Shown: positions 29,077-33,875 of the stretch, one piece after another
Position numbering within the stretch: position 1 is the first letter of the stretch
Layout of the letters: every line of letters starts with the position of its first letter
Virus record (IMG/VR): IMGVR_UViG_3300031785_000016
Coordinates: 1-39,345 of that record
Reading direction: 5' to 3' (one strand)
Length of the DNA stretch: 39,345 nt
Source: a virus
Translations under genes and position numbers: made by a program
Notes under the pieces: model-generated
What the model saw: the letters and a program-made list of their open reading frames with translations, nothing else
Told to the model about the DNA's origin: nothing
The model's database searches: none

Positions 29077-29622
29077 ATGGCTTTTAAATTAGACGGATCA
29101 CCCTTAGCTATTGATGTTGCATTTAAAACATCTGATGGAACACAGTACCCTGCTAACTGGTTAAGACTTGCTAGTGCTGATGAAAAAGCAGCTTTAAAAA
29201 TTACAGAGGTTGCTGATTCTCCGACATATGATTCACGTTTTTATTGGGGTGATGGAACTGCAAAAACTCTTACAGATACAAATGAAGTTGATGAAAATGG
29301 CGATCCAGTATTAGATGAGAATGGAGATCAGGTTGTTACTTTAGGTGTCAAATCAGTACTAAAAGCACAGGAAAAAGCAACTGCTGGTAGTTTGTTAGCT
29401 AAATATGATTGGTACGTTGTAAGAAAAGCAGAAAAATCTACTGCAATACCAACAGCAATTACAACTTATCGTGATGGTGTAAGAACTGCTTGTGATACAA
29501 GAGAAAAAGAAATTGATGCCTGTAAAGATACAGCAGCTTTAGTTACTCTTTACGGATCAACAGAAAAAGATGGTGTTTTTACACCAAACATGACACAATA
29601 TCCAGACGATCCTAACGATTAG
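29077..29622 (+). CDS. Hypothetical protein at the end of the fibre operon
   Basis: Encodes 181 residues (MAFKLDGSPLAIDVAFKTSD...). The motif YPANWLRLASADEKAALKIT and a helical C-terminal half with TTYRDGVRTACDTREKEIDA resemble small proteins encoded beside fibre genes in marine phages, some related to DUF4376. Possibly a fibre assembly helper. An acidic repeat-like loop (DENGDPVLDENGDQ) is noteworthy. Confidence 0.65.
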   Translation: MAFKLDGSPLAIDVAFKTSDGTQYPANWLRLASADEKAALKITEVADSPTYDSRFYWGDGTAKTLTDTNEVDENGDPVLDENGDQVVTLGVKSVLKAQEKATAGSLLAKYDWYVVRKAEKSTAIPTAITTYRDGVRTACDTREKEIDACKDTAALVTLYGSTEKDGVFTPNMTQYPDDPND

Positions 29623-29746
29623 ATTCTTGCATTTGTCTAGTCATATAACTAGAAATTAGATATAAGGGTGCAATACTAGGAATAATTATTAAAAAGGATA
29701 TAATTAAAGTGTGAGAAATTGCTCTTAGTATTGCTTCTTTAACCAT
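29612..29746 (-). CDS. Small single-span membrane protein (antisense)
   Basis: Encodes 44 residues: MVKEAILRAISHTLIISFLI, then IIPSIAPLYLISSYMTRQMQ and a polar end. A hydrophobic span of about 20 residues follows a basic N-terminus. The ATG and the ATG of the plus-strand gene at 29745 share the sequence CATG, and the 3' end overlaps the previous gene by 11 bases. It fills the otherwise empty interval 29623-29744. Holin-like size, but no evidence of that function. Confidence 0.5.
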   Translation of the reverse strand: MVKEAILRAISHTLIISFLIIIPSIAPLYLISSYMTRQMQESNR

Positions 29747-29975
29747 GTTTCAAAAAATTTGTCAGATAGCTTCATTGTTGTCGCTTTTTCTAACCTTGTC
29801 AATGTTGGGCGGTGGATACTATGCTTTTCGTTTTGTGACTAGCGAGCAGTTCAAGGCTAGGGTCATGAATGAGATTCTTGATAACGTATCTGGAATAATG
29901 CCCAAAGTATTAGACAATGCTTTGCCAGACATGACAGGGCCAACAGTTCCAGAATATATAAAGCCTAAGAGTTGA
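29745..29975 (+). CDS. Membrane-anchored hypothetical protein
   Basis: Encodes 76 residues with one membrane span at about 8-31 (IASLLSLFLTLSMLGGGYYA) and a mostly extramembrane C-terminal part ending GPTVPEYIKPKS. Related short anchors with TGP-VP endings occur in cyanophages from memory, followed by a Pro-rich partner as here. The stop overlaps the next ATG. Role unknown; may belong to lysis or envelope functions. Confidence 0.65.
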   Translation: MFQKICQIASLLSLFLTLSMLGGGYYAFRFVTSEQFKARVMNEILDNVSGIMPKVLDNALPDMTGPTVPEYIKPKS

Positions 29976-30625
29976 TGGAGATACCAGAAATAGGTATCAA
30001 ACAAATAAATGTTCCAGAAATTTATATACCTGAGATATACAGGCCAGATCCTGTATTGCCTGTAATAACAAATTTAGAAATAGATGTTGTTGGTTGTACA
30101 TATCAGCACAGAGATATAAAAAATACTGGTAATACACAGCTTTTGCTTGATGACCCAAACGGCGTGTTTTTGACTTGTGGAGAATCTTTGTTTCCTAGCT
30201 TTTACCCTATTGATTACAGACCAGATCAGTTGGTGATTACGGAAGATTTGCCAATAACAAATGATGCCCCACCTATGCCAGAGACAGATATTCCAAAGAC
30301 TGAAACACCAAAAGAAAAAGAAGAAATAAAAGTAGAACCATGTCCACCAAAAGATGCACCATTTATGGCTGGTGATTACAGAAATGATAAAAAAATACAG
30401 AGATTGGTAAAATATGAAAAAACTATAGGAGGCTCCTGTGATCCGATCTGGGAAGATGTACCATTCCGAGAGAGTTTTATTGGTACTCCTGAGGTTCTCG
30501 TTTCTACTGCTATTATCGGTCTGGTTGCTGGTGGGTCTGCGGCTCTTGTCCCTATAATTCAAGGGATTGCGAAGAGTGCCATGAAACAATTAGGCAAGCG
30601 TTTTTCTAAAAAAGACAAGGTATAA
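29975..30625 (+). CDS. Pro-rich protein with C-terminal membrane segment
   Basis: Encodes 216 residues; the ATG overlaps the previous stop (TGATG), preferred over a TTG one codon earlier. The N-terminus contains repeated (V/I)PEI units (INVPEIYIPEIYRPD). The middle is Pro/Glu/Lys-rich with Cys residues, and a Gly/Ala hydrophobic stretch (VSTAIIGLVAGGSAALVPII) precedes a Lys-rich end. Similar proteins occur in T4-like and other cyanophages from memory, always of unknown function. Confidence 0.65.
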   Translation: MEIPEIGIKQINVPEIYIPEIYRPDPVLPVITNLEIDVVGCTYQHRDIKNTGNTQLLLDDPNGVFLTCGESLFPSFYPIDYRPDQLVITEDLPITNDAPPMPETDIPKTETPKEKEEIKVEPCPPKDAPFMAGDYRNDKKIQRLVKYEKTIGGSCDPIWEDVPFRESFIGTPEVLVSTAIIGLVAGGSAALVPIIQGIAKSAMKQLGKRFSKKDKV

Positions 30626-30648
30626 ACATAAGCAAAAGATTTTACAAG

Positions 30649-30683
30649 CCCTTTACAGGCGATTTAAATGCCCTATTTTTTTT
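30649..30683 (+). terminator. Candidate Rho-independent terminator of the late operon
   Basis: AGGCGAT-TTAA-ATGCCCT forms an imperfect stem (one bulge) and is followed by eight T at 30676-30683. It lies just past the last plus-strand late gene and overlaps the 3' end of the convergent gene. Confidence 0.45.
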
Positions 30684-31386
30684 CGATTTTGTGAGTATGA
30701 GGCAAAACTTGGTTTGGTAAGGGAATAAGCTTAACATCTTTACAAGTGACAGCGTGTTCACCTGTCAGCACCACTCCGAGTTTAGCTTGTTTACCACATA
30801 CCTCTAGCCTATACAAGGCCATTTCTAATTTTGTTTTTTTGATTAACAACTCCTGAGCTTCGATATTTACAGCCGCAGCTTTTTTGCAAAGCTCCCCACC
30901 ATTACCCAAAGGAATATTAAATTGCATAGATATTCCATAATTTAAGTTGTAATTATCTTTTTCAAATCTTGGTGTTTCTTGTACATATTTGACCTCACCT
31001 GTATCCTCGTCATAAATATTCTGTCTTGTAACGTATTCTGTAGGGCGGTTAAATGACCACGCATCTGTCAAATAAGGAGTTATAGTTAAACTGGGCGAGG
31101 TGCAAACAATCCCTTGACTGTAGCGATTCTGGGGCAAGCTGGAGGGAGTTATCATTGTGGCGTTGTTATTGACTACCCCTTGAGCATTTGATGAGGGTGA
31201 GGCAACAGTTGTATTTGCTAAAACTTTTGCAGGGCTTAGAAATAAAATTATTGCCCAAAGACAGAGGTTGTTTCTGTGGTTGTAGTTGTTGTAATTGTTC
31301 GATTTATTGTAGTTACGTTGGAAAGGCCAGCACCTTGCAAAGATTCCACCAATGAAAAACTTTGACCAGCGTTTACTATTTTCCAT
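30673..31386 (-). CDS. Exported Cys-containing protein of the secreted cassette
   Basis: The frame gives 237 residues, but the first 46 overlap the previous gene. A signal peptide-like core LCLWAIILFLSPAKVLA ends near residue 57, and the mature part begins NTTVASPSS. No ATG, GTG or TTG lies just before that core, so the start may be ATG 31386 (long leader), a rare ATA/ATT codon near 31250, or reinitiation. The mature part has four Cys (YSQGIVC, GELCKKAA, RLEVCGKQ, AVTCKDV), a helical segment and a His-containing tail (HTHKIEKK). This matches a protein recurrent in cyanophages by memory. Probably periplasmic; function unknown. Confidence 0.6.
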   Translation of the reverse strand: MENSKRWSKFFIGGIFARCWPFQRNYNKSNNYNNYNHRNNLCLWAIILFLSPAKVLANTTVASPSSNAQGVVNNNATMITPSSLPQNRYSQGIVCTSPSLTITPYLTDAWSFNRPTEYVTRQNIYDEDTGEVKYVQETPRFEKDNYNLNYGISMQFNIPLGNGGELCKKAAAVNIEAQELLIKKTKLEMALYRLEVCGKQAKLGVVLTGEHAVTCKDVKLIPLPNQVLPHTHKIEKK

Positions 31387-31685
31387 CTTGGCACAGCCTC
31401 AAGTTCTGGACTTGTCCAACTAAACTGAACACCATTAAGAGTTTGAGTTGTTCCAGTAACTGTCGAAGGGTTGATATAACCATTAAGGTCTGCTGATTCA
31501 ATATTGTGACCTGATGCTGAATATGAAAATCCAGAATTGTATTGGTGCGAAGTGATTGTCTCATTAATTACTGATTGCGAAGTAGAACTCTGAGTACTAG
31601 AACCAGACCTAAACTGGGGGACTACAGGTGTGGCAAGGGTTCTCAGAGGTAGTAGTAATATTAATGATAACCAAAATCTAGTCAA
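31248..31685 (-). CDS. Exported protein of the secreted cassette (second)
   Basis: I choose the TTG at 31685 (145 residues). It overlaps the previous stop by eight bases and is followed at once by a signal peptide (TRFWLSLILLLPLRTLA, then TPVVPQFRSG). The track's longer frame to 31760 would put 25 residues in front of the signal sequence. The mature part is Ser/Thr-rich, with SGFSYSASGHNIESAD and NAGQSFSLVESLQGAG, and ends in a Thr-rich tail before TSVFGQ. It shares motifs with the next gene upstream (31678-32199). Confidence 0.62.
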   Translation of the reverse strand: MTRFWLSLILLLPLRTLATPVVPQFRSGSSTQSSTSQSVINETITSHQYNSGFSYSASGHNIESADLNGYINPSTVTGTTQTLNGVQFSWTSPELEAVPRWKIVNAGQSFSLVESLQGAGLSNVTTINRTITTTTTTETTSVFGQ

Positions 31686-32199
31686 TTTCAATCTGAACAG
31701 TAGTTGAAGCAATGCAGCTAGTACCAGAACCAAATGCTCCAGAGCAAGAATGAACCCCACTAGATAAACTGCTTATACTTCCAGAACCTAAAGTCCCCCC
31801 AGAAATAACTGTTGTTTGTCCACCTAATATTGGAAGAGTTGCTATGCCGCTTGATGGAGTGATTGCTGATTGTGTTACGTCACCAGCTTGATATGACTCC
31901 GATAGTGAGAACGCTGATCCAGCAGTTGTAACCGATTTATTTGTATTTACCAAAGCTGGAACTCCATTGCTTAAGCTGCCAAGATTTAGGCCACCTATCC
32001 CATTTGTCACCACACTATCCCCTGTTCCTGTAGAAGTAGTAATATTATTTCCACTTATAGAGTATGAACTAGGGGCGGCATTTGTAATCACATAAGGAGA
32101 GTCAATAGAAATCTGTGCAGAGGTCACATATTTGGCCGTTATATCAGCAAAGGCACTAGACGGAGAAAGAAAGATTATAAATGGAATTAGTTTTTTCAT
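31678..32199 (-). CDS. Exported protein of the secreted cassette (first)
   Basis: Encodes 173 residues with a clear Sec signal peptide (MKKLIPFIIFLSPSSAFA, cleavage before DITAKY). The mature part is Ser/Thr/Gly-rich and β-prone, with SSYSISGNNITTSTG, AGSAFSLSESYQAGD and two late Cys (HSCSGAF, GTSCIAS). It resembles a family in T4-like cyanophages that I know only as hypothetical. The ATG overlaps the stop of the membrane protein gene upstream (32196-32438). Likely surface or periplasmic. Confidence 0.7.
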   Translation of the reverse strand: MKKLIPFIIFLSPSSAFADITAKYVTSAQISIDSPYVITNAAPSSYSISGNNITTSTGTGDSVVTNGIGGLNLGSLSNGVPALVNTNKSVTTAGSAFSLSESYQAGDVTQSAITPSSGIATLPILGGQTTVISGGTLGSGSISSLSSGVHSCSGAFGSGTSCIASTTVQIEID

Positions 32200-32438
32200 T
32201 TGATTCCAGCTTTTGTATTCTTATTATCCACTATAACTGGTTTTTTTCCGTTTCCATTTTTACCCTTTACAGCTATCCCATAGCTGCTAGCTATATTGCC
32301 CACGAGGCCAGCCGCAAAAGTGTCGAGCCTGATTCTTTCCATATATCCAAGAGTCATAACTGACAAAGCCCAACAAAGGATAATAAATCGGATTGCGTGT
32401 CCAAAATAATCACGACTTTCCTTTTCTTCTTCTTCCAT
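32196..32438 (-). CDS. Membrane protein heading the secreted cassette
   Basis: Encodes 80 residues: an acidic N-terminus (MEEEEKESRDYFGH), one or two hydrophobic segments (AIRFIILCWALSVMTLGYME, then TFAAGLVGNIASSYGIAV) and a basic Lys-rich tail. Its stop overlaps the next gene by four bases. A TAGTATTAGACAAG motif stands 24 bases before the ATG. Possibly the membrane partner of the three exported proteins, or a holin-like protein. Unproven. Confidence 0.65.
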   Translation of the reverse strand: MEEEEKESRDYFGHAIRFIILCWALSVMTLGYMERIRLDTFAAGLVGNIASSYGIAVKGKNGNGKKPVIVDNKNTKAGIK

Positions 32439-33650: not shown

Positions 33651-33875
33651 TTAAAAGGGTTCAATGGGTGTAATGCCGTTTGCTTCTTCCCAAGCAAGGA
33701 CTTTGTGAAGGTCATATCTGACTCTAGGATCACCATAAGAGACAGCAAAGATAGGAAGTTCATAGTACTCAGGGCCTATGCCTTTGTACCGCCATCTTCT
33801 TATGGAGTCTGGGTGCATACCATATCTCTTGGCGAGTTGATCGGTAGAGAAATACTGGCTGCCAGCTACTGTCAT
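33651..33875 (-). CDS. Helix-turn-helix DNA-binding protein
   Basis: Encodes 74 residues. FSTDQLAKRYGMHPDSIRRW (about 9-28) is a typical MerR/excisionase-type helix-turn-helix, followed by a wing (YKGIGPEYYEL) and RYDLHKVLAWEEANG. It overlaps the Rad52-like gene by four bases. It could be a regulator of the early operon or an accessory protein. No integrase is present to make it an excisionase. Confidence 0.7.
   Translation of the reverse strand: MTVAGSQYFSTDQLAKRYGMHPDSIRRWRYKGIGPEYYELPIFAVSYGDPRVRYDLHKVLAWEEANGITPIEPF

Follow-up and report, generated by a model that had tools for sequence, protein, structure and literature searches.

A widespread cassette of exported and membrane proteins in marine cyanophages and its possible role in lysis

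Sullivan et al. (2010; PMC3037559) described, in 15 of 16 T4-like cyanophages (the exception being S-PM2), a cluster of hypothetical genes that they considered to be 'clustered for functional reasons'. In the passages of that paper devoted to it, the cluster comprises T4-GC 218, 219, 234, 235 and 237 together with a 'plasmid stability' gene, through which mobility is suggested; beyond clustering and mobility, these passages propose no function. Here we analyse a block of seven open reading frames (ORFs), P1 to P7 (29612-32438), in the IMG/VR virus record IMGVR_UViG_3300031785_000016, the whole of which (39,345 bases) is our window. Our results show that the block belongs to a real, widespread and cross-morphotype module, previously noted in T4-like phages, for which a role in lysis is the best supported reading, although it is not proved.

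The way in which cyanophages break through the outer envelope of their hosts, Prochlorococcus and Synechococcus, is an open question. Kongari et al. listed 23 cyanophages as spanin-less and suggested a fragile outer membrane as one reason. In coliphage T7, the interval between gp17 and gp18 holds the type II holin gp17.5, and Rz-like spanins (gp18.5/18.7) follow gp18. Our searches of PubMed Central (PMC), which do not extend to subscription papers and theses, found no paper for DUF6322 or DUF6450, two families of the cassette, nor for a cyanophage holin, spanin or lysis cassette, and none of the papers listed by further searches names, as listed, the cassette as lysis genes.

The block and its relatives

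The window, related to the Prochlorococcus MED4 siphoviruses MED4-117, MED4-184 and P-HS2, carries the block between its tail-fibre genes and its recombination genes. A preliminary description of this DNA had reported an overlapping minus-strand operon of one membrane protein and three exported proteins, convergent with two plus-strand genes and accompanied by an antisense membrane peptide, and all seven ORFs were found where it had placed them. The operon starts with P7 (32196-32438, minus strand), a holin-like protein of 80 residues with two transmembrane (TM) helices, and continues on the same strand with the genes of the exported proteins P6 (31678-32199), P5 (31248-31685) and P4 (30673-31386); P6 and P7 overlap by 4 nt, P4 and P5 by 139 nt. 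The start taken for P5, TTG 31685, is common to its relatives, in a frame that is itself open to 31760. Facing these genes on the plus strand are P2 (29745-29975), with 76 residues and one N-terminal TM helix, and P3 (29975-30625, from ATG 29975), with 216 residues. P1 (29612-29746, minus strand) is an ORF for a hydrophobic membrane peptide of 44 residues, its start codon back-to-back with that of P2.

All genes from P2 to P7 belong to known families. P2 matches phrog_568 (E 6e-16), labelled 'plasmid stability', whereas the other PHROGs, matched by P3 to P7, are of unknown function: phrog_570 for P3 (E 7e-37), phrog_848 (E 4e-68) and phrog_1755 for P4, phrog_650 for P5, phrog_564 for P6 (E 2e-33), and phrog_21865 (E 1e-8) and phrog_721 for P7. 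P5 also matches the Pfam family DUF6322 (PF19847, E 8.6e-34). P7 belongs to the DUF6450 family, for which the window's copy falls below the cut-off (E 0.0018) and six of its relatives match at 6e-18 to 3e-33. P6 is a paralogue of P5 (hhalign E 6.6e-7, probability 92), an assignment based on the PHROG search and hhalign only, the iterated hidden Markov model (HMM) of P6 having drifted to take in P5. Set against the T4-like cluster, P7 corresponds to T4-GC 218, P2 to 414 (syn9 gp162), P3 to 234 (syn9 gp164), P4 to 235, P5 to 236 and P6 to 237, with a similar convergent layout. The window differs in being a 39-kb siphovirus, in missing GC 219, and in the position of P7, which has shifted to the start of the exported operon.

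The families are common in marine phages. When 50,697 phage records were searched with tblastn, the window's P4 matched 378 of them, the P6 of syn9 393, and the P7 and P4 of P-SSP10 428 and 456, respectively; judged by the first word of their names, all records in the four sets are cyanophages or marine or uncultured viruses. We gathered 331 loci from four IMG/VR scans and from named records, all picked by P4 and many cut by contig ends. HMM searches found P3 in 322 of these loci, P5 in 321, P6 in 297, P2 in 267 and P7 in 263, and almost all show P6-P5-P4 in convergent order with P3-P2. P7 heads the exported operon in 74 loci, including the window (order P7 P6 P5 P4 / P3 P2, hereafter S-type), lies at the far end beside P2 in 189 (T-type), and was not found in 68. 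A gene like syn9 gp163 (GC 219) occurs in 99 of the 331 loci, none of them with the S-type order. The block lies near regA in syn9, S-SM1 and P-SSM4, psbA in S-RSM4, and hli/psbA in P-HM1; in S-PM2 the cassette is absent and regA is directly followed by hsp20. The PHROG matches of P2 to P6 (6e-16 to 4e-68) and the synteny in 331 loci place the block beyond chance. The preliminary description had mentioned similar proteins in T4-like cyanophages and, anticipating synteny among relatives, had suggested that the module may be transferred between phage classes. The same families are indeed found there in syntenic, convergent order, and the block extends to T7-like podoviruses.

Membrane topology, counted with a Kyte-Doolittle rule for P2, P3 and P7, is stable for the two smaller proteins, with one TM helix in 181 of 209 distinct P2 homologues and two in 180 of 199 distinct P7 homologues. 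The C-terminus of P7 is net basic in 197 of the 198 homologues having a TM helix, the topology being predicted from sequence. P3 is more variable: the window's copy is devoid of signal peptide, contains 11% proline, and has a single C-terminal TM helix (residues 174-192) followed by a basic tail of charge +6, but the 265 distinct homologues have one (88), two (67), three (105) or four (5) TM helices.

Exported proteins and an overprinted leader

The Sec-exported character attributed to P4, P5 and P6 in the preliminary description is borne out by the n-h-c signal peptides present across their homologues. Among the distinct leaders holding the anchor motif, scored with a simple rule rather than SignalP, a hydrophobic h-region and an AxA-like site were found in all 224 leaders of P4, all 219 of P5 and 121 of the 122 of P6, and a lipobox-like site in 0, 1 and 0 of them, respectively. 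One relative of P5, PSSP7_044, is itself annotated 'possible SignalP'. P4 has a long leader, with predicted cleavage near residue 57 and a mature part at about 31215-30676 that includes four conserved cysteines, three of them invariant and the fourth nearly so. P5 and P6 are rich in serine and threonine.

The leader of P4 is overprinted on the 3' end of P5 (31248-31386, minus strand): P4 starts inside P5, and a second frame is in use over the last 45 or so codons before the P5 stop. Of 264 non-redundant loci, 262 keep this frame open for at least 45 codons, whereas synonymous recoding of P5 gives a mean run of 15-17. In many relatives the leader is rich in arginine and lysine right before its hydrophobic core. 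The frame is broken in MED4-184 (L001 4344-4931) and intact in the near-identical MED4-117, which may reflect a real break or a sequencing error. In S-SSM6a (L170 3589-4822) it runs without a stop over some 130 codons of P5, a much longer stretch than in most relatives.

The AlphaFold (AF2) model of P4 has low confidence (predicted local distance difference test, pLDDT, 66; predicted template modelling score, pTM, 0.31) and consists of two strands of 21-22 residues forming a long beta hairpin, then a helix of 40 residues. That of P5 (pLDDT 77, pTM 0.42) has two strands of 23-24 residues. Foldseek searches against the PDB gave no significant match for P4 (best E 0.3) or P5 (best E 0.041), pore proteins with long hairpins and parts of phage tails making up most of the hits, and VIA-align found no significant structural match either (best Z 4.8 and 3.5, respectively). 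A sequence search of solved structures returned nothing for P4 and P5 and two chance-level matches for P6. Among the BFVD matches at E<=0.001, those with a name are proteins of cyanophages or marine phages; several rows are nameless.

Genomic position, timing and possible functions

The most compact version of the cassette is found in podoviruses and keeps P7 without P6 and P2. A viral structure library revealed relatives of P4 in P-SSP10 and P-SSP3. From the tail side, P-SSP10 encodes a P3-like protein (weak match, E 0.002), P7 (5e-28), an unannotated P5 (3e-11), P4 (1e-20), a small gene and the terminase small subunit (TerS). P-SSP7 and S-TIP37 have the same four genes, P3-P7-P5-P4, the P3-like reading of S-TIP37 being split over two frames; the record of P-SSP7 annotates the first three with one TM helix, two TM helices and a possible signal peptide. 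In all three phages the genes lie between the tail-fibre genes and TerS. Hence, the two-TM P7 and its partners occupy the same interval as the late lysis region of T7, although we found no sequence relation between the two regions and the cyanopodoviruses have no lipoprotein and encode extra, Sec-exported proteins (P4 and P5). None of the podovirus cassette genes was found in Syn5. The same slot of Syn5 encodes gp47 (L411 6393-6653), with an N-terminal TM helix and, by eye, an apparent coiled coil, which is possibly a different lysis protein.

Promoter sequences suggest late expression in most T4-like versions. The motif [AC]TAAATA, which we take to be the T4-type late -10 motif, lies upstream of several virion genes and of no listed replication gene in the stretches of S-PM2 and S-SM1 that we analysed, the exception among listed non-virion genes being the metabolic cobS in S-SM1. 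In T-type loci, 108 of 148 P6 starts have it within 120 nt, mostly at -40 to -20, as do 84 of 178 P7 starts, for a background of 0.026 per 120 nt and with the caveat that related loci are not independent. It is much rarer before P2 (29/169) and P5 (3/165), and was not seen before P4 (0/175) or P3 (0/187). The support for late timing thus covers the majority of T4-like versions but not those in which the motif is missing.

The published list of spanin-less phages overlaps with the carriers of the cassette: 17 of its 23 cyanophages show at least one cassette gene, taking pRSM4, PSSM-7 and SRS-M4 as P-RSM4, P-SSM7 and S-RSM4. Five lack P4 (S-PM2, Syn5, P60, PSS2 and S-CBS4), a count that leaves out Pf-WMP4. 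Of the 17 records searched for a free-standing phage lysozyme (PF00959), one was found only in S-PM2, where the cassette search had been run with positive controls; a second match, in S-SM1, lies inside a frame of 925 residues. So S-PM2 lacks the cassette and has a lysozyme, while a free-standing one is missing from all 11 cassette carriers examined. A lysozyme was reported in print for PSS2, yet the PF00959 search did not find it, and a search for GH108 gave no match in anything searched, which makes it uninformative. In the window, no PHROG matched at E<=0.001 by 40 further ORFs carries the name of a holin, an endolysin or a spanin, which agrees with the earlier statement that no lysis genes are recognised there.

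With moderate confidence, we interpret the cassette as a late lysis or exit module of marine cyanophages, with P7 as holin and P3 to P6 in place of spanins. Besides the points summed up below, this reading draws on the two TM helices and basic C-terminus of most P7 homologues, the three signal peptides without a lipoprotein, the limitation of the tblastn records to cyanophages and marine or uncultured viruses, the lysozyme contrast between S-PM2 and the cassette carriers, and the lack of a named lysis gene in the window. P7 would gather in the inner membrane and act as a class II holin, whose hallmarks are a small size, two TM helices, cytoplasmic ends with a basic C-terminus, a gene in a lysis region, and late and timed permeabilisation of the membrane. 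P3, with its C-terminal TM anchor and basic, putatively cytoplasmic tail, would form the inner-membrane side, joined by P2 in myoviruses and siphoviruses. P4, P5 and P6 would be exported by Sec, P4 being likely disulphide-bonded, and would assemble at or in the outer membrane through their long beta strands to breach, together with P3, the outer envelope. Our data show the gene content, the synteny, the signal peptides, the P4/P5 overprint, the late-type promoters of T4-like versions and the T7 holin slot of podoviruses; the action of P7 as a holin, and the way P3 to P6 assemble and act on the outer membrane, are inferred from these. The cassette is comparable to the two-component spanins Rz/Rz1 in the proposed breaching of the outer membrane, in the N-terminal TM helix of P2, which recalls an inner-membrane spanin (i-spanin), a type II protein with a periplasmic coiled coil, and in the P4 leader over P5, which parallels their nested or overlapping genes. 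P4 to P6 differ from them in the lack of a lipobox, with beta-rich exported proteins instead of a lipoprotein, and the i-spanin comparison does not extend to podoviruses, which are devoid of P2. P3 and P4 are candidates for the pair discussed in the lysis context by Kongari et al. Of the three functions offered in the preliminary description, lysis or envelope breaching gains support from the T7 holin slot, the T4-like late-type promoters and the list of spanin-less phages in print; the late timing makes superinfection exclusion less likely; and envelope remodelling stays a live rival.

Several observations weigh against a lysis module. The host supplies the main argument that the role is not purely lytic. 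P4 has matches in 9 of 400 Cyanobiaceae genomes, and three of these encode P6-P5-P4 in the chromosome (genomes G301, G318 and G385; loci L395 150-2837, L396 305-2064 and L394 7311-9830), next to genes that look by eye like NAD kinase in all three and like ndh genes in G301 and G318. The copies lack the P4/P5 overlap, and a convergent proline-rich P3-like protein with a C-terminal TM helix accompanies them in G301 and G385 (E 0.0013 and 0.0044), the two where the stretch is readable. No P7, P2 or nearby phage genes were found in the three stretches. Being carried in cyanobacterial chromosomes, the P3-like protein and P4 to P6 are not lethal by themselves; the lack of the holin-like P7 there fits the proposed division of labour. 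P7 matches a DUF and no holin family, the varying TM counts of P3 leave its topology and orientation unsettled, and the P4 and P5 models are weak and lack a significant structural match. The late motif is absent before P6 in 40 of 148 T-type loci, including the printed leaders of syn9, S-SM1, P-SSM4 and P-HM1, and was not seen there in 71 of 74 S-type loci. No endolysin was found; the peptidoglycan enzyme may be virion-borne. Finally, the isolated phages S-PM2, S-SZBM1, Syn5, P60, PSS2 and S-CBS4 have neither P4 nor P7, and all but S-PM2 gave no lysozyme match.

The chromosomal copies, where P4 to P6 are kept beside housekeeping genes without P7 and P2, are what makes envelope remodelling a live rival. 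P4 to P6 might coat or perforate the outer membrane late in infection, with P7, P2 and P3 anchoring or exporting them, and affect adsorption (superinfection exclusion), nutrient uptake or surface properties without lysing the cell. The serine- and threonine-rich composition of P5 and P6, the long strands predicted for P5, and the fact that some phages without the cassette still lyse would fit such a role. But a late-type promoter is late for exclusion, the block sits in the T7 holin slot in podoviruses, and the most compact version retains P7 while losing P6 and P2. We consider a non-lytic function possible but less likely than lysis. The exported proteins could also join the virion, or aid tail-fibre assembly or adsorption, as tail-fibre genes precede the block both in the window and in podoviruses, and virion genes share late-type promoters. 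This we find rather improbable, because Sec signal peptides are unusual in virion parts assembled in the cytoplasm and because the T4-like block lies beside regA/hsp20 or psbA/hli, away from structural genes (except in S-RSM4, where a structural-protein gene is adjacent).

Two further explanations seem even less probable. The pattern of a strand, a PL motif and an alanine-rich helix in P4 resembles outer-membrane efflux proteins, as do the hairpin and long helix of its low-confidence model, which might point to a phage-made trans-envelope channel or secretion system, with a TolC-like P4 exporting or importing small molecules late in infection. Yet P4 has no match to PF02321 (E<=1), and its alignment with 24 Prochlorococcus efflux proteins gave an hhalign E of 0.11 (probability 0.5). 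The internal-repeat control also failed, which leaves efflux membership unproven rather than disproved, and we regard the channel as very improbable. The mobility suggested by Sullivan et al. in the passages cited above, with the 'plasmid stability' protein P2 as carrier, would account for the presence of the block at differing genome places and across phage classes. However, P2 is a small one-TM protein with no Pfam match above the cut-off and no visible recombinase feature, and podoviruses have the block without it, which makes this scarcely probable.

If the cassette is indeed an exit machine, this would explain its sharing across morphotypes, and several gene families that rank among the commonest unknowns of marine viruses would gain a function. 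More tentatively, and with less confidence than in the lysis module itself, we suggest that marine cyanophages of the T4-like, T7-like and lambda-like groups could have this lysis machine in common, made of a holin and a compact, overprinted outer-membrane breacher unrelated to spanins. It might have been traded between morphotypes, since the picocyanobacterial envelope to be crossed is the same for all three, and P3 to P6 might have been adopted by some cyanobacteria as an envelope structure.

Other matches and neighbouring genes

A set of matches in the genome collection probably represents mis-binned phage contigs, given that the block is present on them. Blocks that look like the podovirus version, P3-P7-P5-P4, lie at about 8-10 kb on contigs of Cyanobiaceae genomes (L397, L398 and L399; G108, G399 and G317) and may be integrated or contaminating phages. 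A solitary and distant P4-like exported protein (L400 8351-9061, E 4e-7) was also found in a Cyanobiaceae genome, near what appear by eye to be two-partner-secretion genes.

At the other end of the block, an opposite-strand ORF abuts P2, as P1 does, in 64 of 70 S-type loci, a count that includes some out-of-frame picks of the selection rule; 56 of the 64 are hydrophobic. In the remaining six loci, three ORFs lack an ATG, one is too short, and two loci have none. Further along the window, 33651-33875 encodes a small excisionase-like regulator (phrog_66, E 1e-6); no integrase was found among the ORFs scanned. The block is flanked by P8 (32500-32661, plus strand; 53 residues; phrog_2738, E 8.5e-10), which resembles, by eye, the small gene preceding TerS in P-SSP10 (P-SSP10_47) and Syn5 (gp48).

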